Below, one piece after another: positions 7,024 through 33,994 of a DNA stretch of 35,911 bases; within the stretch, counting starts at the first letter, position 1; the number at the start of each line of letters is the position of its first letter. A model generated the notes under the pieces. It was not told where the DNA came from and made no database searches. It worked only from the letters and a program-made list of their open reading frames with translations. Position numbers and translations under genes: made by a program. The stretch lies in contig PFXJ01000024.1 in the NCBI GenBank assembly GCA_002791595.1, forward strand, positions 33,339 to 69,249. The letters are read 5' to 3'. Origin of the DNA: a candidate division Zixibacteria bacterium CG_4_9_14_3_um_filter_46_8. Its GTDB lineage: Bacteria; Zixibacteria; MSB-5A5; UM-FILTER-46-8.

Positions 7024-8424
7024 CTACTCCAGCAACGTCATCCGCTTGGTGAGAGCCTTGATTCCTGCCGTCAATTTGGAGAAGTAGATACCGGAAGAGT
7101 AATTTGCCGCATCCCAGATTACACTATGCTGGCCCGCTTCACTGTAGCCATCCACCAAGGTGGCAACCCTCTGGCCGGCAATGTTGTAAACCGCAAGGTT
7201 CACATTACCGGCTGACGCAAGAGCATAAGTGATAGTGGTGGTGGCATTAAACGGATTGGGATAGTTACCGATCAAAGTATATTCGCTTGGCAGATCCTCT
7301 CCGACGTTCCATCCCCCCTCCAATATCCATCCCTCAAGCTGTGGCATGCCTTTGTTGGACTCACGATGTAATCGTGAGGATAACAAAGGCATGTCTTTAT
7401 CCCCTTGTTCCGCAATACATGCTTGCGCCTTCCCATCTCCCCTCAACTCCCCGGGCGAAAGCATGCCACCCGCGACAACTGTAAAATCAAACTTTGCCGA
7501 ATCGCATTTGTTGGTGTTATAATCACCGCAATAGGCGACATATTCATAACTTCCCAACGGCGCATAAATCGGCACATTCTGATTCAGATGCGTTGATAAT
7601 GATTGCCCCGGATTGAGAGCAATATTGTTGAATAGCCAGAGTTGATAGAAAACATTATTGTATTTGACTCCCACCCACACATCGGTCTGAATCGGATCGG
7701 TTGTCGGATTACTGATTGTGCCAGTCAAACCGAAACTCCCACCCGGGGGGACTGTTACGGGAGATGTATCGGGAGTCATACTGACATCACAGCAAGGGAC
7801 TACGGTACATTCTACCCAGGCGACATAATCCGATATTGAGCAAGGAGGTCCAGCGAAAGTAGAAGGACCAACCCAAAGCCAATAATTCCCGGCAGCCACT
7901 TCAGCGTTAATACGGAGCGTATCGCCGGAAATCGCAAGGCCATAGGTTAGAATTTCGTAATCAGAACAATTTGTTGATCCCGAATTGATAATGAACATAA
8001 GCAGGGGAAAGGTTGCTACACCACTCCACTGGAGCTCACAACACGATGCAATAGCGATTTGGTACCAATCCGTATCCCTGTAACTATATCCATGGCGTAG
8101 GAAAGCCCCAGATGTACCGCATATTGTATCGCCATTTTGAATTTGTTGAAAAATGGGCGGATTTGAATCGCAACCACCATTGTAGGCATCTACATAATCA
8201 TCAAAGCATCGTGGCTCCCCTTCCTCAATTCCCTCTGGTGGGCAGTTAATTAAATTTTCTTCATCAAGAATCCCTCCGCCTGAATTTGAGCCCGTAAGCA
8301 TATTTTCCAGAATAGAGGGAATGAACGCGTTATTATCACCAGCGAATGCAAAGATACCAGTGAGTTCATATATAATGAAGATAAAGATAATCAGACGATT
8401 CATAATGTATTCTCCGTATTTCAA
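7024..8424 (-). CDS. Secreted protein with C-terminal sorting (T9SS/Por_Secre_tail-like) domain
   Basis: N-terminal signal peptide; C-terminal YPNPFNATTTITYALASAGNVNLAVYNIAGQRVATLVDGYSEAGQHSVIWDAANYSSGIYFSKLTAG. Confidence 0.85.
   Translation of the reverse strand: MKYGEYIMNRLIIFIFIIYELTGIFAFAGDNNAFIPSILENMLTGSNSGGGILDEENLINCPPEGIEEGEPRCFDDYVDAYNGGCDSNPPIFQQIQNGDTICGTSGAFLRHGYSYRDTDWYQIAIASCCELQWSGVATFPLLMFIINSGSTNCSDYEILTYGLAISGDTLRINAEVAAGNYWLWVGPSTFAGPPCSISDYVAWVECTVVPCCDVSMTPDTSPVTVPPGGSFGLTGTISNPTTDPIQTDVWVGVKYNNVFYQLWLFNNIALNPGQSLSTHLNQNVPIYAPLGSYEYVAYCGDYNTNKCDSAKFDFTVVAGGMLSPGELRGDGKAQACIAEQGDKDMPLLSSRLHRESNKGMPQLEGWILEGGWNVGEDLPSEYTLIGNYPNPFNATTTITYALASAGNVNLAVYNIAGQRVATLVDGYSEAGQHSVIWDAANYSSGIYFSKLTAGIKALTKRMTLLE
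7345..7393. repeat. 49-bp imperfect palindrome inside a coding region
   Basis: CATGCCTTTGTT-GGA-CTCACGAT-GTA-ATCGTGAG-GAT-AACAAAGGCATG: 12-bp outer and 8-bp inner arms, both perfect, symmetric about 7369. Confidence 0.95.
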
Positions 8425-12164: not shown

Positions 12165-12178
12165 GAGACCAAAAGATA

Positions 12179-12208
12179 AGGGGTTTCGATGATGCAATCG
12201 AAACCCCT
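12179..12208 (-). terminator. Strong hairpin 29 bp past the serC stop; likely 3' end structure of the serC transcript
   Basis: AGGGGTTTCGAT-GATGCA-ATCGAAACCCCT, perfect 12-bp arms; weak T-richness on the minus-strand 3' side. Confidence 0.6.
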
Positions 12209-12236
12209 AATTTCTGGCTAAATATTAGATGGCCCG

Positions 12237-13322
12237 CTAATTGGATTTCTTGAATTTCTCCATAAATTCGACTACTTTATGGGCGCCATCAAGGGTCAAA
12301 GCGTTATAAAGCGAAATCCGTATCCCGCCGACGCTCCGATGTCCTTTCAGCCCAATAAAAGCTTCAGTTTTGGCTTCGGATAGGAATTTTTTTTCCAGGT
12401 CCTCCGAGGGAAGGCGCAGGGTGATATTCATCCAGCTACGGCTATCTTTCTCGGTAGTCCCCTTGAAATAATCCGGATATCTGTCCATTATTCCATACAC
12501 GGCATCTTTTTTGGCTGCGTTCACTTTTTCGATTGCCTGCAAGCCGCCCTGTTTCTTTATCCATTCCAGAACCAGTTTCACTATATACACGCCAAACACC
12601 GGCGGAGTATTATAGAGTGAACTGTCTTTGGCGTGGGTGCGGTAATCGAACATCGTGGGAAGGCCATCTTTGCATTTCGCCAGCATCTCATTGCGAATTA
12701 TCACCACAGTAACTCCGGCAGGACCGAGATTTTTCTGGGCGCCAGCATAAATAAGCGAGTATTTGCTGAAATCAGTCCGCATAGAAAGGATATCGGAGGA
12801 CATATCGGCCACCAGAGGCACATTGCCTGCTTCAGGAACAAAATGATATTGGGTGCCTTCGATGGTATTATTGGTGGTGATATGGAGATAAACTGTATTG
12901 GACGGGAATTTGATATCAGCTTTCTTGGGAATAAATGAATAATTCTTTTCTTTGGAGGAAGCGGCCACGTGAACATCACCAAATATCTTGGCTTCTTTCA
13001 TTGCTTTCGATGACCAAGTGCCGGTATTAACATAAGCCCCAGTTTTGCCGCCAATAAGGAAATTCATCGGGACCATCGCAAATTGCGAAGATGCCCCTCC
13101 GCCGACGAAGAGGACTTTGTAATTATCACCCAATCCCATCAGATCTTTCATTAGAGCCATCGCCGTATTATTGATTTCCTCGTACTCCGCAGAGCGATGG
13201 GAGATTTCGATGACCGACATACCGGTTCCCTTATAGCTGATGAACTCTTCCTGGACTATTTTCAGGACATCCAGAGGAAGAGTGGAGGGACCGGGGTTGA
13301 AATTAAAGACTCTATTTGTCAT
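12237..13322 (-). CDS. serC: Phosphoserine aminotransferase
   Basis: RVFNFNPGPSTLPLDVLKIVQEEF, YAGAQKNLGPAGVTVVIIR PLP-lysine region, GHRSVGGIRISLYNA. Confidence 0.96.
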   Translation of the reverse strand: MTNRVFNFNPGPSTLPLDVLKIVQEEFISYKGTGMSVIEISHRSAEYEEINNTAMALMKDLMGLGDNYKVLFVGGGASSQFAMVPMNFLIGGKTGAYVNTGTWSSKAMKEAKIFGDVHVAASSKEKNYSFIPKKADIKFPSNTVYLHITTNNTIEGTQYHFVPEAGNVPLVADMSSDILSMRTDFSKYSLIYAGAQKNLGPAGVTVVIIRNEMLAKCKDGLPTMFDYRTHAKDSSLYNTPPVFGVYIVKLVLEWIKKQGGLQAIEKVNAAKKDAVYGIMDRYPDYFKGTTEKDSRSWMNITLRLPSEDLEKKFLSEAKTEAFIGLKGHRSVGGIRISLYNALTLDGAHKVVEFMEKFKKSN

Positions 13323-26011: not shown

Positions 26012-29000
26012 TCAGCGGCTGAAGCCAAGGTAGTAGTATCCGGCCCAGTAATAGGGATGGGATCTGCCGGAATCAATGATTTCTTTCTGGGTTTTAGCAA
26101 GAGCATTCTCCGGACTTGAGCTCTCGATTTCCTGAAGGAATCTCTTGAGAAATATGCCGCGTTCAAAATCATTATAATTCCAATAAGGCAGAATAATGCC
26201 GCTTAACCCGCTGCATAATAACACTCGCCATAGCAGAATGGCTTGATCAGGTGGAAGAATCGTTGGCAGGCTGTTTCCGCCGTCAAATTCAAATATGAAA
26301 CCGTTACCATTTCGATTCTCCACGAGCCAAGCCAGATCAACCATTGCGGTGTCAGAACCAGTAGGAGCGCCCCCCAGAGTATAGTTGAGCGGCTGACCAT
26401 CATTGGCAAAAATACCAATGTCGGAGATGATGAAAGGCGGCGTTTGGGTTTCGAGTAAATGCCGGAAATCCTGGCCGCGGCGCATCGGGTAGGTCCTTCG
26501 GACTTCCTGACGAGCTAAAGCTTTTTTCCAAAAGCCATCTTGAAGTGTTCTTTCATCCTCATCGGGAAGCAAATAAGCTATCCCGTCGAAGCTCTCATGC
26601 CTTATGTCCTCGTTCCTAATGTAAATGTCATAAATTGATGGTATTACATTTATAGTCATCGTTGCTGAATCAGCCCCCATCCATTTCGGAATCAAGCAGC
26701 CAAATGGCAGGCCCGCGATACTACCATTGGGGATAATGGCTATTTTTCTGTAGCCTTTAAGTTCATTTTCTAATCCGGCGATCAGGAATGAGCATAGCAA
26801 TGAATCCAATCTTCCTGCTTGACCAAGCGATGTGATAGCGGAAGAATATTGGCGCGTTAAATCCGAAAAATTAAGAGCAGTCGTGGAAACGGCACCTTCG
26901 ACACGAGCGCCATCAGTGAAAAATCTATAGAGCTTGTTAGCATCGATGAAATAAGCTAAGGCACAGGAGCCTTCAAGGGCTTGAGCCATGGGAGTCATTT
27001 CTAATGAAGGGACCGCGAACAAGAGAAAGACCGTTGGATAGGCAGACCTGATGGCAGAAAGTGATGCAAAATATTGGCTTCGGTGATTACCCAATTCATC
27101 GAGAGATTCCCACAAGGAGTCTATCTTTGAATCGTGGCTCCTATTGATTAAGGAGTAATATTCGATCTGGGAGGCGGTCAATTGAGATGCCAGCGAATCA
27201 AGCCGCGCATCCTTAAATCGATAGCGATGGCTTGCCAACAGCGACGTTTGAGAATATTGGAAGGATTTCTGGAAGTTCTGCAATGATGTTTGATAATTCC
27301 CATTAGAAAACTGGACCGCCGCCAGAAGACGATAGGCATCTGCGGGATGATAAGGCAGACGTGATCTCAGCAGTTCTCCTTCGGGAATTACCGGAATGGA
27401 ATCAAGTAAAGTTACGGCTTTCATCAGCGCTTCCTGTGCAGAAGCAAGATCGTTCTCATTATAAAAGCATCTTGCCAGAAGATAGGAATACCGCCACTGC
27501 AATTCCTCAAATACCCTGGAAGTCGAAGTAGTCAACGTTTCATTGAGATATTTTATAGCATACTTGAATTTGCCGTTGGATTCCAGGATCGAGGCGTAGA
27601 TCAGATGATACTTCATCCGAAGGAATTCATTCTGAGTTGAAGTTATCAGAAAATTGGCCTGCGTCAGAAACTCCATGGCGGAGCTCAGATTGCCTTCGTG
27701 GGCGATGGCCAATGACAAATCGAGAAGCGATTCTATACGCTCACGGAGATTACCCTTCCCCTCCTGGGGAATGGTGATAGCCAGCCTTAAGAAATCGACC
27801 GCTTTGCCATATTGTTTTTCCCGTAAATAATACCTTCCGAGATTATCAGAAAAAACAGCACGGTGCAAGTGAGACTTCAAGGAATCTGCCTCGGCAAATC
27901 CATTAATCAGCAGTTTTTCGCCCTCACCTTTGTATCCTGAATATATTTTAATTGCTGCTTTTGTCAAAATGGCATCGAGGTAGCCATTAGCGATTCCCCG
28001 GTGTTGGCTGTAATTGGCGGCAAAATCAGCCAAAACCTCTGCCGAATCATAATCTCCTACCGCCCATTTCACCGAAGAGAGAATCTGGGCGCATCGGGCC
28101 GCATTCGCGGAATCGTTGGCATTGCGATACAGGTCGCAGGCGGTTGTAAGATAGCCTTCAGACCGAAGATAACGAAATTGCTTAAAATGCGCCAACCCCA
28201 ATAATTGGTATGCCGCCGCTCTATCCGGGGATGAGAGCGAATCGAAAATGGCCACAGCGATTTGCAGGGCGGATGCGGCTTGACGATAATCACCGGAATT
28301 GATGAGTATCCGTCCACGTATGAATTCGGTGGCGGCATATTCTTTTCCCTTATAATCGGGAGGGAGGTTCGCCAGGGCGGTGTCAATCGCGGAAAGCGCC
28401 AATTCATATTTGGCGCCTGAGTCATAAAGCGAGGCAACATTTCTGAATCCGATGGCGGTTTCCAGCGAATCAGTCTTATCACTGGCAACAGCCATATATT
28501 GGCGTTGATAACCGGCGGCAGACTCAAAAAAACCTCCGCTATTGGCAATGTCACGAAGAAGCAGTAATACTTTGCCAATGCTATGGGTATCTCCCCGGGA
28601 TTGGGCTAATTCGAGGACCTGCTTTTGATATTTCTCGGCAATTCGATAATTGGCGGCCTTGAAAGCTGAGAAAACCACTCGCTGCAACAGAACATCAGTT
28701 TTGGCTGGCTCGAGGTTCAATCTGGGCGAGAGTTGGTAAGCCTTTTCGAAATACTCCAGGGCATCTTCCCAGCTCTCCTCTTTAGCGGAAATATTGGCTT
28801 TAAGCATAATCTCGCCGAACTGTTGCTGGGCGAATGTAATCTCCTGTGGCTTATCCATCCCACGAAAACCGATCTGTTCGAATCCAGCCCAGAATCGGGA
28901 ATCGGGATACCTGTTTCGAAATTCATTTTTGGCGCTCCCAAGCGCAGTCGCCACGTCGGAAACCGATAACTTGGGCACGAGCAATTCCAAAAAGCGATTG

Positions 29001-32000
29001 AAAATCGAGTCAGGTATCGTCCATCGGGAAATCACCAATGAGGAGGAACCGGCATAATTGAAAACCGCTTGAAAAATGGGAAGCATCTCTGCCCAGTCGA
29101 TGTCATTGGAATTTCTAAGGATCACAGCTTTGCAATTCAATCTGTATCTGAGGAGTTCACTTAACTGGGGGCTGATTTCCATGGGCATAACGAGCCTTGA
29201 GCCCAGGGGGTAGTCGTCTTTTGCCTGGATTCCCCCTCCGAATATCAATACACCATAATTAGTCAGAGCATCCGGAATGCTGTCTGCGCTGGCTACGAAA
29301 TAATCGGGAATCGCAAAGCTTGATAAATCCGATTTTGATGGAATGACCATAATCTTCGGCGAAGGGACTCGGCGGTTCTGATATCCGTTAAGGATCATCG
29401 ATATACTCGATGAGATGGAATAATCGCAAATATCCAGCAGAGCCGTTTCACCATCATTCAGCGCGGAGAAAGGTATCTTTGAGAGAATCTGGTCCGGGAT
29501 TATGTAAACATGGCTTCTGTCCTCAAGGCGAGCCCTATGGTCATGAATCAATAAATCAAAAAGATATTTTAGATGATCGTTGACAAACGGATCGCCCATG
29601 GAGTCTTGCAGGGAATTTATTATGTTACTCAGTGAGCCGATATTTAACGGTCGAAATGAAAACTCGATGGTGTCAGCATCGATATACCAGATACCGAGGC
29701 CATCCTTGAATAGGCGGTAGTCCAATATGCAGCTTTCCTGGCCCAGCACTGTTTGGAGCAGTAATGTATCGGGTACCGATGGATAAACCATTGGTACCAG
29801 CGCCGGAAAATCGGATTTAATCCTTGCGAGAGTATTATCCAACTCAGTTCGAATATTGCCAAGCTCGATATTTAGGGAATCGGCCGCCTTCAATGCGGCG
29901 GCATCTTTCCTGATTTCAAGGGCACGTATCATCGATGTTAATGAATCGACCATCTGATCGAAATATCTTATATTCTGCCAGTACACTTTATGGAGTTCGC
30001 TCCGGAATTCGCGCAGAGGATAGCGCGAGAATTCGCCGGCTAAGGTCATAGATCTATACAGTTCGACGGCGTTGAGGGCTTCATCTGGCTCCCCAGAATC
30101 AATGAGCTTCTTGAGATAGGCTGAGTAATATTCATTGAGCTCCGGCAACTCCTCGCGAAATGCGAAAGGATTCTTGCCGCCGCGCAAATTCCGCATGATC
30201 TTCACCGCATCTTCCAATGCCGCCAGCGATGAATTGGGAACGGGATCAGACAATCCTTTTATCATAAACACTCGCCAGAGAATATCGCTGAATCCATTTT
30301 CAACCGCGAGGTCCCGCGCCTGGATTAGTGAATTCTGCGAATCTATTGAAAGGCCCAGATCAAAATAAATGGTCGCAAGATTCAAATTGATTGCGGATAA
30401 ACCATATTTATTCTCCAGCCGTTTGGCCATAATGGCCGCGGATTGAAAATGGAGTATGGCCTTTTTCAGTTCAATGCCGAAATTGGCCATTTCTTGATGC
30501 CCAATAACTGCGGCGGAGGCAGGGCCATCGGCATTGATGAGCTTAAATTCATATCCCCTGGTGATTTTCCCGGCATCATTATGGAAGCGTGAATAAATCC
30601 AGGCCCCGATGGCACAATGAAGATACATCTTTAATGCCGAAATATCACCGGGCAGTTTTTCAAGAGACTCTGATAGGTTGCTTTCTATACCAGATATGAT
30701 CGGGGGATCGACCCTTAATGCCAAGCCGGGATAGGCCAGAAAGAGATTGCAGAGATTGATGGCATTAGTTGCGGCGCCGGAGAGTATTTTCGCCTCTTTG
30801 GAGATATTCATAGCCTTATAAAAATAGGCAAAAGCCGAATCAGGATTGCCGGCATTTTGATAGAGATTGCCCAGGCGATTGGAAGTAATCGCCATTGATT
30901 TTCGGTCTCCGACTTTCATCTCCGATTGCATTTTAGCTTTGAAATAAAAGGCGGCGGCATCAATATCTCCCTGTCTTACATTACTTTCAGCCTCATAATT
31001 TCTAAGGAGCCTTTCGCTGATATTGAAGGGAAACCCTTTGGGATAAAAAGAGCCTCCGATTTTGAACTCCTCCAATTCGGCAATCTGAAAATCAACTGGG
31101 AGCAATGGCAACCTTCCCAGAAGCAGGCCGGAGGTTTTAAGGTCACCGATGCTTCCCAGGGAAATATAGATCGAGTCGGATTTTGAGGCAGATTCCTCGC
31201 ACCTGGCATTTTCCATATCAATAAAGCTGACAGTCGCCAGAGCTTTCAGCATCTCCGCCTCGTGGTGTAAATCGGAACGGGATTTATAGATCTCAAGGGC
31301 AAGTTCGAAATAGCGTTGGGCATCATCGAAATTCTCGTCGGCCAAATACACAAAGCCCAATTTTTTAAGGATCTGCAAGCGGAATTGGGCATCGGACTTT
31401 TCCTCGGCGATTCGTAATAACTCCTGGAAGCACTCCGCGGCCACTTTCATGCTATCAATCTGCAGCGCGGCCTCCCCCAAATTCCATAAATAATCGTTCA
31501 GCAGTTTGCTGTCTCCACGGTGATCGACAAAATCACGGCAGCTCCGATAATAAGAGAATGCCTGCGAGAATTGGCCGATATTGAAATAGCCGGTGGCGGC
31601 ATTGAGCTCGAGGCTATGTCTTAGCGCTTTGGGCGATCCCGGATTCAGGTTGCTGATACCAATGGAGGCGATATCGATAGCTCTTTCAGAGAACCCAGAT
31701 TCATCAGGGGCGATATCTCCCTTTTCGAATTTGAGATAAACCTCTCCGAGGGCGACATAGGGGAAAATCCATTCGAAGTATTCATCATTGAGGTTCTCCA
31801 ATAACCTCCGTGAACGCCTGAGTTCACTCTTGCTCCCCTTCGCGTCATAACGTTTCAGTGACACGAGGGCGCGGCCATACGTTATTCCTCGATTCTCGCC
31901 TATTGCTATTTCGAGCGAGTCATAAAATTCCTGCGCATAATCAAGGCCATTCTTGAGCGCACAACTCATCACGAAGCCCCAATGGCAGTCACCCCTGTCT

Positions 32001-33994
32001 GGAAATTGCCTGATCATTCCCTGGAACGAATTCTGGGATTTGTCATAATCATTTTCCTCGAAACTTGAGGAGGCCGCGTTCAAGAGATATTCATACAATT
32101 CATTTCCGGCTTGCAGACGCACCTCGTCAAGCGCATCTTTGGATTTCATCAAGGAATCCAACTCCGCGAGGCCTTCATCGGCCGCGCCGGTGGCAATTTT
32201 CGTTTTTGCGGATAGCAGTCTGGCCTGTTGGCTGTATGACAACTGCTCGGGGCAAGAGATAAAAACCGTTGCGTACTGGTCGATAGCCGAGTAAAAATTC
32301 CCGCTCTCCTCCAATACCTTCGCGATATTAAATTTACCCGCCGCCCGCAGCAGCCTTATATCGGGAAAAGATTCCATCAAATGACGCATACCAACAATGC
32401 GATCATTGGGCGGGAGATCGGCATATTGATTGAGAGCGTAAGCCACCGCGCTGTCCGCAAAATCCTGACGGTCAGGATGACTGGCAATGACCCGGAGATA
32501 ATTGGAAGCGTTTGAGAGGCGATCATCGGGATTGAGAACACTGTATAAGTCTCCCATACGGAGAATCGCCCGGCACGCTGTTTCGTCATTGACTGCAAAA
32601 CTATCAATCACTGTTTGAAATGATTTCAATGCTTCTCTGAAATTGCCATAACGAAACAGGAGAATTCCAGCTGTATAATGCACTTCGGAAACTGTTGCCG
32701 GCTCGTCTCCGGACTCCTCGCGCATTTCGGCCAACGAATTCAGAGCTTTCTTCAGGGCAGATCTTCTATCGAGATCCCATTGCCGATTGGTTTCCAACTG
32801 CACTCTTTTAATGCGAGCCAGGAATTTGTCTGCGGGACGAAGGCTTATGCTGTCTGCAGCAGCCCAGGCCAGATCCGCCTCCCGGTAAAACCCCTCCTGC
32901 TGATAAATATCTCCGCATTTTATGATCGCTTTCGTTGAGCCATCATAAGCAGGATAAATAATCGCACAGGACTCCAAATATTGGATGGCGGCCAGACGAT
33001 CTTCCCTTTCACGAGATCTCGCCAATTCCATTCCGTATTGAAAAAGCGAGTCGGGGAAAGAGTATATCTTCAAAAGGATGGAAAGGTCGGATTTTGCGAG
33101 ATTTATTCCGCTTCGATCCGAAATAGTATAATATATCCATTTCGCTTGATGGTCAGGAACGGGATAATATACGGCATGGGGCTTAAATATGAATTTGACC
33201 GTTTGATGAGATCGCAGGTAATATCCGGAAATACAGGGGATATCATTAATCGTAAGCGCTCCATCTTTATCGGTATCTACACAATAGTGAGTAAAAAATA
33301 TGATGCTCCCATCGGATGAATATTGCGGGTTCATTACCGGACCGGGGCCAGTTTCTACATATTCGATTTGTCCAGATGAATCAGCGATAGCCAGCCGATT
33401 GTCGCCGCCGAGTCCGGTGGCATCGAGGGCGATAAACGCCAGGTGCCTGCCATCTGGTGACCAGCATGGACTGATGCCGCCGCCGGTGGTAATGCGTTTT
33501 ATAATCTCGCCATTTTTTAGGGCGATGAATACTTCAAGGTAACCGGTTTCACGGTCGGAACATAAGGCGATGTGTCGCCCGTCGGGTGAGATCGCCGGGT
33601 CAATGTCATATCCCTGGCGGTTGGTGATGCGATCGGTGGACTTGGTTTCAAGATTTAGCCTATAGATATCTCCCAGGGCATCATCACGTCGGGAAACGAA
33701 ATATAGCGACTTTCCCTCTTCATCATAGCAAGGACTGAAGTCAGCAGAGGAATGGGAGGTCACTGCCCTAGGAAGGCCTCGAGAGGTGGATTTCAGATAG
33801 ATGTTAAAATCGCCATCTCGGAAGGATGTAAATGCAATCCAATTATTGTCCGGAGAAATGGTCGGTTCAAAATCAACGGCAGGATGGCCGGTGAGTTTTA
33901 TCACCGCAGGAATCGGTATCGCCACCCCGGATTCAAAGGGCAATAGTAATATGAGTATTATCAGAAAACTTGGAAATTGAAGGACTTTAGGCAT
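26012..33994 (-). CDS. Giant (2660 aa) exported protein: TolB-type beta-propeller, extended TPR arrays, two CHAT-like domains
   Basis: Signal peptide; PD40-like SPDNNWIAFTS, SPDGRHIALCSDRE, SPDGRHLAFIA; many TPR-like helices; two CHAT-like modules ending RFWAGFEQIGF and HPYYWAGYYYLGFSR. Confidence 0.88.
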   Translation of the reverse strand: MPKVLQFPSFLIILILLLPFESGVAIPIPAVIKLTGHPAVDFEPTISPDNNWIAFTSFRDGDFNIYLKSTSRGLPRAVTSHSSADFSPCYDEEGKSLYFVSRRDDALGDIYRLNLETKSTDRITNRQGYDIDPAISPDGRHIALCSDRETGYLEVFIALKNGEIIKRITTGGGISPCWSPDGRHLAFIALDATGLGGDNRLAIADSSGQIEYVETGPGPVMNPQYSSDGSIIFFTHYCVDTDKDGALTINDIPCISGYYLRSHQTVKFIFKPHAVYYPVPDHQAKWIYYTISDRSGINLAKSDLSILLKIYSFPDSLFQYGMELARSREREDRLAAIQYLESCAIIYPAYDGSTKAIIKCGDIYQQEGFYREADLAWAAADSISLRPADKFLARIKRVQLETNRQWDLDRRSALKKALNSLAEMREESGDEPATVSEVHYTAGILLFRYGNFREALKSFQTVIDSFAVNDETACRAILRMGDLYSVLNPDDRLSNASNYLRVIASHPDRQDFADSAVAYALNQYADLPPNDRIVGMRHLMESFPDIRLLRAAGKFNIAKVLEESGNFYSAIDQYATVFISCPEQLSYSQQARLLSAKTKIATGAADEGLAELDSLMKSKDALDEVRLQAGNELYEYLLNAASSSFEENDYDKSQNSFQGMIRQFPDRGDCHWGFVMSCALKNGLDYAQEFYDSLEIAIGENRGITYGRALVSLKRYDAKGSKSELRRSRRLLENLNDEYFEWIFPYVALGEVYLKFEKGDIAPDESGFSERAIDIASIGISNLNPGSPKALRHSLELNAATGYFNIGQFSQAFSYYRSCRDFVDHRGDSKLLNDYLWNLGEAALQIDSMKVAAECFQELLRIAEEKSDAQFRLQILKKLGFVYLADENFDDAQRYFELALEIYKSRSDLHHEAEMLKALATVSFIDMENARCEESASKSDSIYISLGSIGDLKTSGLLLGRLPLLPVDFQIAELEEFKIGGSFYPKGFPFNISERLLRNYEAESNVRQGDIDAAAFYFKAKMQSEMKVGDRKSMAITSNRLGNLYQNAGNPDSAFAYFYKAMNISKEAKILSGAATNAINLCNLFLAYPGLALRVDPPIISGIESNLSESLEKLPGDISALKMYLHCAIGAWIYSRFHNDAGKITRGYEFKLINADGPASAAVIGHQEMANFGIELKKAILHFQSAAIMAKRLENKYGLSAINLNLATIYFDLGLSIDSQNSLIQARDLAVENGFSDILWRVFMIKGLSDPVPNSSLAALEDAVKIMRNLRGGKNPFAFREELPELNEYYSAYLKKLIDSGEPDEALNAVELYRSMTLAGEFSRYPLREFRSELHKVYWQNIRYFDQMVDSLTSMIRALEIRKDAAALKAADSLNIELGNIRTELDNTLARIKSDFPALVPMVYPSVPDTLLLQTVLGQESCILDYRLFKDGLGIWYIDADTIEFSFRPLNIGSLSNIINSLQDSMGDPFVNDHLKYLFDLLIHDHRARLEDRSHVYIIPDQILSKIPFSALNDGETALLDICDYSISSSISMILNGYQNRRVPSPKIMVIPSKSDLSSFAIPDYFVASADSIPDALTNYGVLIFGGGIQAKDDYPLGSRLVMPMEISPQLSELLRYRLNCKAVILRNSNDIDWAEMLPIFQAVFNYAGSSSLVISRWTIPDSIFNRFLELLVPKLSVSDVATALGSAKNEFRNRYPDSRFWAGFEQIGFRGMDKPQEITFAQQQFGEIMLKANISAKEESWEDALEYFEKAYQLSPRLNLEPAKTDVLLQRVVFSAFKAANYRIAEKYQKQVLELAQSRGDTHSIGKVLLLLRDIANSGGFFESAAGYQRQYMAVASDKTDSLETAIGFRNVASLYDSGAKYELALSAIDTALANLPPDYKGKEYAATEFIRGRILINSGDYRQAASALQIAVAIFDSLSSPDRAAAYQLLGLAHFKQFRYLRSEGYLTTACDLYRNANDSANAARCAQILSSVKWAVGDYDSAEVLADFAANYSQHRGIANGYLDAILTKAAIKIYSGYKGEGEKLLINGFAEADSLKSHLHRAVFSDNLGRYYLREKQYGKAVDFLRLAITIPQEGKGNLRERIESLLDLSLAIAHEGNLSSAMEFLTQANFLITSTQNEFLRMKYHLIYASILESNGKFKYAIKYLNETLTTSTSRVFEELQWRYSYLLARCFYNENDLASAQEALMKAVTLLDSIPVIPEGELLRSRLPYHPADAYRLLAAVQFSNGNYQTSLQNFQKSFQYSQTSLLASHRYRFKDARLDSLASQLTASQIEYYSLINRSHDSKIDSLWESLDELGNHRSQYFASLSAIRSAYPTVFLLFAVPSLEMTPMAQALEGSCALAYFIDANKLYRFFTDGARVEGAVSTTALNFSDLTRQYSSAITSLGQAGRLDSLLCSFLIAGLENELKGYRKIAIIPNGSIAGLPFGCLIPKWMGADSATMTINVIPSIYDIYIRNEDIRHESFDGIAYLLPDEDERTLQDGFWKKALARQEVRRTYPMRRGQDFRHLLETQTPPFIISDIGIFANDGQPLNYTLGGAPTGSDTAMVDLAWLVENRNGNGFIFEFDGGNSLPTILPPDQAILLWRVLLCSGLSGIILPYWNYNDFERGIFLKRFLQEIESSSPENALAKTQKEIIDSGRSHPYYWAGYYYLGFSR

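Follow-up and report, generated by a model that had tools for sequence, protein, structure and literature searches.

How did a strong palindrome come to be read in frame within the gene of a secreted protein? The question is raised by an open reading frame at 7024-8424 of the window, which is the whole 35.9-kb stretch of Zixibacteria DNA analysed here. The analyses indicate that the palindrome is very probably one half of a GTGG-tagged inverted REP doublet (REPIN/BIME-like), most likely moved by a RAYT, which was inserted in frame where the linker of this T9SS-type secreted protein is encoded. The coordinates of the features are listed in Table 1.

Table 1. Features of the host gene and of the element inserted in it.
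Feature	Position	Strand	Evidence
Host CDS	7024-8424	-	Signal peptide, domain common to ~20 paralogues, linker with insert, T9SS sorting tail
Por_Secre_tail (type IX secretion C-terminal sorting domain)	7039-7263	-	Pfam PF18962, E 2.9e-9; TIGR04183, E 1.9e-10
Putative REP doublet, GTGGCATGC...GCATGCCAC, 129 nt (43 codons), read in frame (GGMLSPGELRGDGKAQACIAEQGDKDMPLLSSRLHRESNKGMPQL with flanks)	7341-7469	-	Two hairpins with common feet; length and frame
REP unit B, GTGGCATGCCTTTGTT...AACAAAGGCATGT, includes the predicted palindrome	7341-7394	+	Model R3, E 2.5e-6 (rough); model R2, E 2.3e-5
Palindrome of the original prediction	7345-7393	.	Inverted repeat, folds, shuffle and Markov controls
Spacer between the REP units, 22 nt	7395-7416	.	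Model-match coordinates
REP unit A, GTGGCATGCTTTCGCC...GGCGCAAGCATGT, inverted relative to unit B	7417-7469	-	Model R3, E 1.6e-6 (rough); fold

Palindrome and host gene

An inverted-repeat search of the window placed the arms of the palindrome exactly at 7345-7367 and 7371-7393, as originally predicted for a 49-bp element. Its lower stem of 12 bp and its upper stem of 8 bp are separated by a symmetric internal mismatch of 3 nt, and the upper stem closes a loop of 3 nt. The palindrome folds very well on both strands, with -28.3 kcal/mol (z -6.4) as RNA and -21 kcal/mol (z -7.6) as DNA. No other palindrome in the window scores as high (17); the maximum was 12 in 300 codon shuffles of the CDS, and 14 in 30 Markov windows. 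The palindrome is real and lies far beyond chance. It encodes DMPLLSSRLHRESNKGMP on the minus strand, and its predicted location, in frame and directly before the sorting domain, was borne out by translation and by the Por_Secre_tail match.

The host protein begins with a signal-peptide-like segment and ends with a type IX sorting tail; the start codon is likely the ATG at about 8403. Secreted proteins with T9SS tails form a large paralogous family, with dozens of matches per genome in the source genome and its relatives. The distance from the conserved FTV to the first W of the tail is 49 residues in the host protein, versus 9-12 in 19 paralogues of the same genome and likewise in one paralogue from another, related genus. 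About 38 residues are extra in the host protein alone. Domain-tail gaps, which were read by eye from the paralogue search, range from 3 to 42 nt in about 50 domain-tail pairs. The extra linker segment is, by this comparison of sequences, an insertion. The proposal that a palindromic element of mobile type sits in frame in a tolerant linker agrees with this, and the same residues are missing from the paralogues. Given its position between the folded domain and the sorting tail, the linker most likely tolerates the insert.

Structure of the inserted element

Folding of the whole extra segment revealed two hairpins, A and B (units A and B in Table 1). The original prediction had located the palindrome correctly, but had underestimated the feature, since the element extends over both hairpins. 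Hairpin A, which reads GTGGCATGCTTtCGCC...GGCGcAAGCATGT from 7469 to 7417, folds weakly when taken alone (z -1.8) and is not exceptionally stable. The two hairpins have the asymmetric feet GTGGCATGCYTT...AARGCATGT in common, and they are inverted, with the tags outermost. Measured from GTGG to CCAC, the doublet is stop-free in the host frame; both other coding-strand frames of its 117-nt core contain stops. Removal of exactly 129 nt leaves a linker of 6 residues, versus 11 expected, so either the exact element boundaries or the ancestral linker is uncertain.

In a comparison with classical MITEs, which have terminal inverted repeats and a target-site duplication, the outer feet GTGGCATGC/GCATGCCAC of the window element are inverted ends, but no separate duplication was found outside these feet. 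Another model, in which a 117-nt insertion had duplicated 7 bp of a 12-bp palindromic target, was dropped because the flanking GTGGCATGC sequences are the element's own feet.

Related hairpins at RAYT loci

Sixty loci around Y1 transposase genes were retrieved; they were selected by the transposase rather than by hairpins, and were then inspected for hairpins. The foot GTGGCATGCTTA...TAAGCATGT was found in hairpins of three loci from the same family, L304, L305, and L307. At L305 (genome G002), a 670-bp element carries one unit at each outer end and the RAYT gene in between; L304, in the same genome, has its own inverted doublet about 0.9 kb from a Y1 gene; and L307 (genome G003) has two units upstream of the transposase gene. 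Hairpins of the window type flank the RAYT gene at L305 and L307. The transposases of these two loci share 53% identity, and both match NCBIfam NF047646 (REP-associated tyrosine transposase, REP_Tyr_transpos) above the cut-off; the G003 RAYT is 188 aa long. The GTGG tag, not the usual GTAG, precedes the hairpin on its 5' side in all eight units of the relatives and in both window units. The short imperfect hairpin with an internal mismatch, which is a REP trait, is present in the window element and the relatives, and the inverted pair as a unit recurs with this arrangement in L304 and, as the terminal units, in L305. The window hairpins are the counterparts of those at the left and right ends of a RAYT element from a related genus, minus the transposase gene.

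Host duplications were observed at two of these loci. A 93-nt direct duplication of the host flank brackets the 670-bp RAYT element (L305:889-1789; G002, C5); it stops 8 nt before the element and resumes 37 nt after it. The transposase frame of L305 has an early in-frame TAA relative to L307. The doublet at L304:2297-2400 (G002, C61) immediately precedes a gene and is flanked on each side by a host duplication of 26 nt.

Six hairpins, all from the relatives' RAYT loci, were used to build a covariance model (R3), which contained no window sequence. It matched hairpins A and B, and apart from these no match below E 0.05 was found in the window. Over the models made from such hairpins, R2 and R3, the matches at A and B had E-values of about 1e-5 to 1e-6. 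The E-values are rough and involve some selection, as three of 75 RAYT loci were chosen after the foot was known; both window matches stay significant after correction for this selection. The element was identified as a REP doublet because this RAYT-derived model matches both window hairpins. A pattern search with the feet also led to an intergenic pair in genome G019 of the same phylum. This pair of GTGGCATGC hairpins lies at L204:1497-1558, in another family. When R3 was run across 0.89 Mb (own-genome stretches plus L204), the window hairpins were still at the top, followed by the G019 pair, which was recovered although it was outside the training set. The own-genome stretches scanned contained no further match under E 0.1; L166:15980-16030 resembles a weak third unit (E 0.34).

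Copy number and candidate transposases

No other copy of the doublet was found in the source genome by whole-genome blastn. DNA and peptide searches of this genome and of phylum genomes (133 with DNA, 58 with peptide) also identified no other copy, and the weak peptide matches looked like chance; blastn against phages and plasmids gave no match. The high copy number usual for REP families was thus absent from both the whole-genome blastn and the 0.89-Mb model scan, in which no other clear copy appeared. This weakens the label "repetitive" in the source genome, but not the homology to the RAYT-associated units. For the predicted mobility, the genome-wide blastn result cuts both ways: near-single copy number counts against it, yet the relatives in other genomes mark mobile DNA. 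Small REP families, with 20-100 units or fewer, are on record (PMC3733652).

Several other candidates were rejected. Searches of genome and viral collections with patterns of the palindrome arms gave either no match or unrelated hairpins that resemble terminators. The single hairpin matched by a model from the palindrome alone (R1), in G052, was also terminator-like. Among the viral contigs with GGTGGCATGCC..GGCATGTCT there were two real hairpins (L256 and L260), but mostly chance coding matches. The hairpins L160 and L170 lie in possible ORFs, but these reading frames look spurious.

The draft genome, which is 94% complete, has five RAYT loci; these lack a RAYT with the GTGG tag and carry other REP types. 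The doublet was most likely mobilised by a RAYT that is not visible in this draft. The matching RAYT may have been lost, be missing from the assembly, or never have been present, with the insertion derived from a relative. In other systems, RAYTs recognise a hairpin with a 5' tetranucleotide in single-stranded DNA and cut close to it, and REP doublets in inverted orientation act as mobile units (PMC8266576, PMC3116915). In the proposed mechanism, a RAYT (HUH, single tyrosine) would recognise the GTGG-tagged hairpins in single-stranded DNA, and the doublet, moved in trans, would integrate in frame in the host linker. The copy might survive because the frame is open and 129 is divisible by 3, and because 38-43 added residues would be tolerated in the linker. 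The insert is presumably translated, and may be neutral for the host protein.

Comparison with known systems and alternative origins

REPINs are REP doublets that form hairpins (Bertels and Rainey 2011, PMC3116915). The window element has the same two inverted REP units with a spacer and the same relation to RAYTs, and its size is of the same order (129 bp, versus a spacing of 71-110 bp in REPINs). It differs in its GTGG tag, its essentially single copy, its intragenic position, and the matching RAYT, which was not found in the draft. REP dimers in frame within genes are already documented for the GTAG and CGTC families (superfamilies), and linkers and loops have been argued to be tolerant (PMC3733652). 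The GTGG-tagged doublet is therefore an addition to these intragenic dimers, with which it would share in-frame translation; what is new is the tag. It also differs in its T9SS-type secreted host and in its length, 43 codons versus 20-30 for dimers or groups. As in RAYT/TnpA-REP systems and REPtrons (PMC8266576), hairpins with a 5' tetranucleotide accompany an NF047646 transposase in G002 and G003; the window copy has no transposase, and its mobility is presumed.

The element also resembles the Rickettsia palindromic elements (RPE; PMC10969869, PMC3733652), as a palindromic insertion in frame in a protein gene. A family of this kind, in which a selfish element with a conserved peptide spreads in frame through many genes, would fit a palindrome in a linker and a length of about 130 nt. 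It is nevertheless quite improbable, as the peptide occurs in no other gene of 58 genomes and the window hairpins match hairpins associated with RAYTs. RPE are described with a CGTC end tag (PMC3733652), whereas the insert contains neither CGTC nor GACG and has no RPE-like copy number. The likeness suggested in the original prediction holds in principle for an in-frame palindromic insertion, but does not extend to membership, because the tag and a second copy of a conserved peptide are lacking and the relatives flank RAYTs.

Equally improbable is a local origin without a mobile element, by quasi-palindrome or template-switch mutation or by microhomology-mediated capture of a fragment. Single copy in the genome would be consistent with it, and a 7-bp direct repeat (GGCATGC), which about 1% of codon shuffles reach, bounds the 117-nt segment. 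However, two inverted REP units with self-complementary feet account for this repeat. The GTGG..CATGT feet, which RAYT elements of other genera carry, would not be recreated by template switching, and R3 matches at both hairpins. A functional mRNA or DNA hairpin (attenuator, thermometer, terminator, or inversion site) under selection in the host gene seems more improbable still: the fold is stable and the top Rfam match is FourU, but its 20.6 bits fall far short of the gathering score (60), neither strand has a U-run after the hairpin, and the hairpin is missing from the paralogues. An ordinary linker of variable length that contains a palindrome by chance has almost no probability: linkers before sorting tails can vary in length, but the range is only 9 to 12 residues across twenty paralogues, and the palindrome is far outside the shuffles.

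If the REP doublet reading is correct, the locus is a clearly delimited natural example of hairpin DNA from a transposon turned into protein sequence, with ~20 paralogues as controls. With a GTGG-tagged REP family defined and a candidate transposase in sister genera, mobilisation and tolerance become directly testable.

Further observations

On another contig of the source genome (C86:402-2777; L076:3-2378), a type ISP restriction-modification gene contains, in frame, a whole RAYT element with REP hairpin arrays. An interruption of some 0.93 kb divides the Type_ISP_C domain of this gene at about profile position 182-186; the domain is uninterrupted in 11 relatives. As a second in-frame insertion with REP hairpins in the same genome, this case was counted in favour of the REP doublet reading. 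Because the lineage repeatedly tolerates in-frame RAYT-derived DNA (the secreted protein and the type ISP enzyme), it was also proposed that RAYT elements may be selected for stop-free frames and add new peptide segments to proteins; this proposal is doubtful.

Elsewhere in the window, the strong hairpin ATAAGGGGTTTCGATGATGCAATCGAAACCCCTAAT at 12176-12211, in the gap before the gene at 12237-13322, is terminator-like or REP-like, and a further inverted repeat lies at 11989-12013/12051-12075. The ORF at 26012-33994 encodes 2660 residues, which comprise a WD40-like propeller, TPR repeats, and a CHAT domain.
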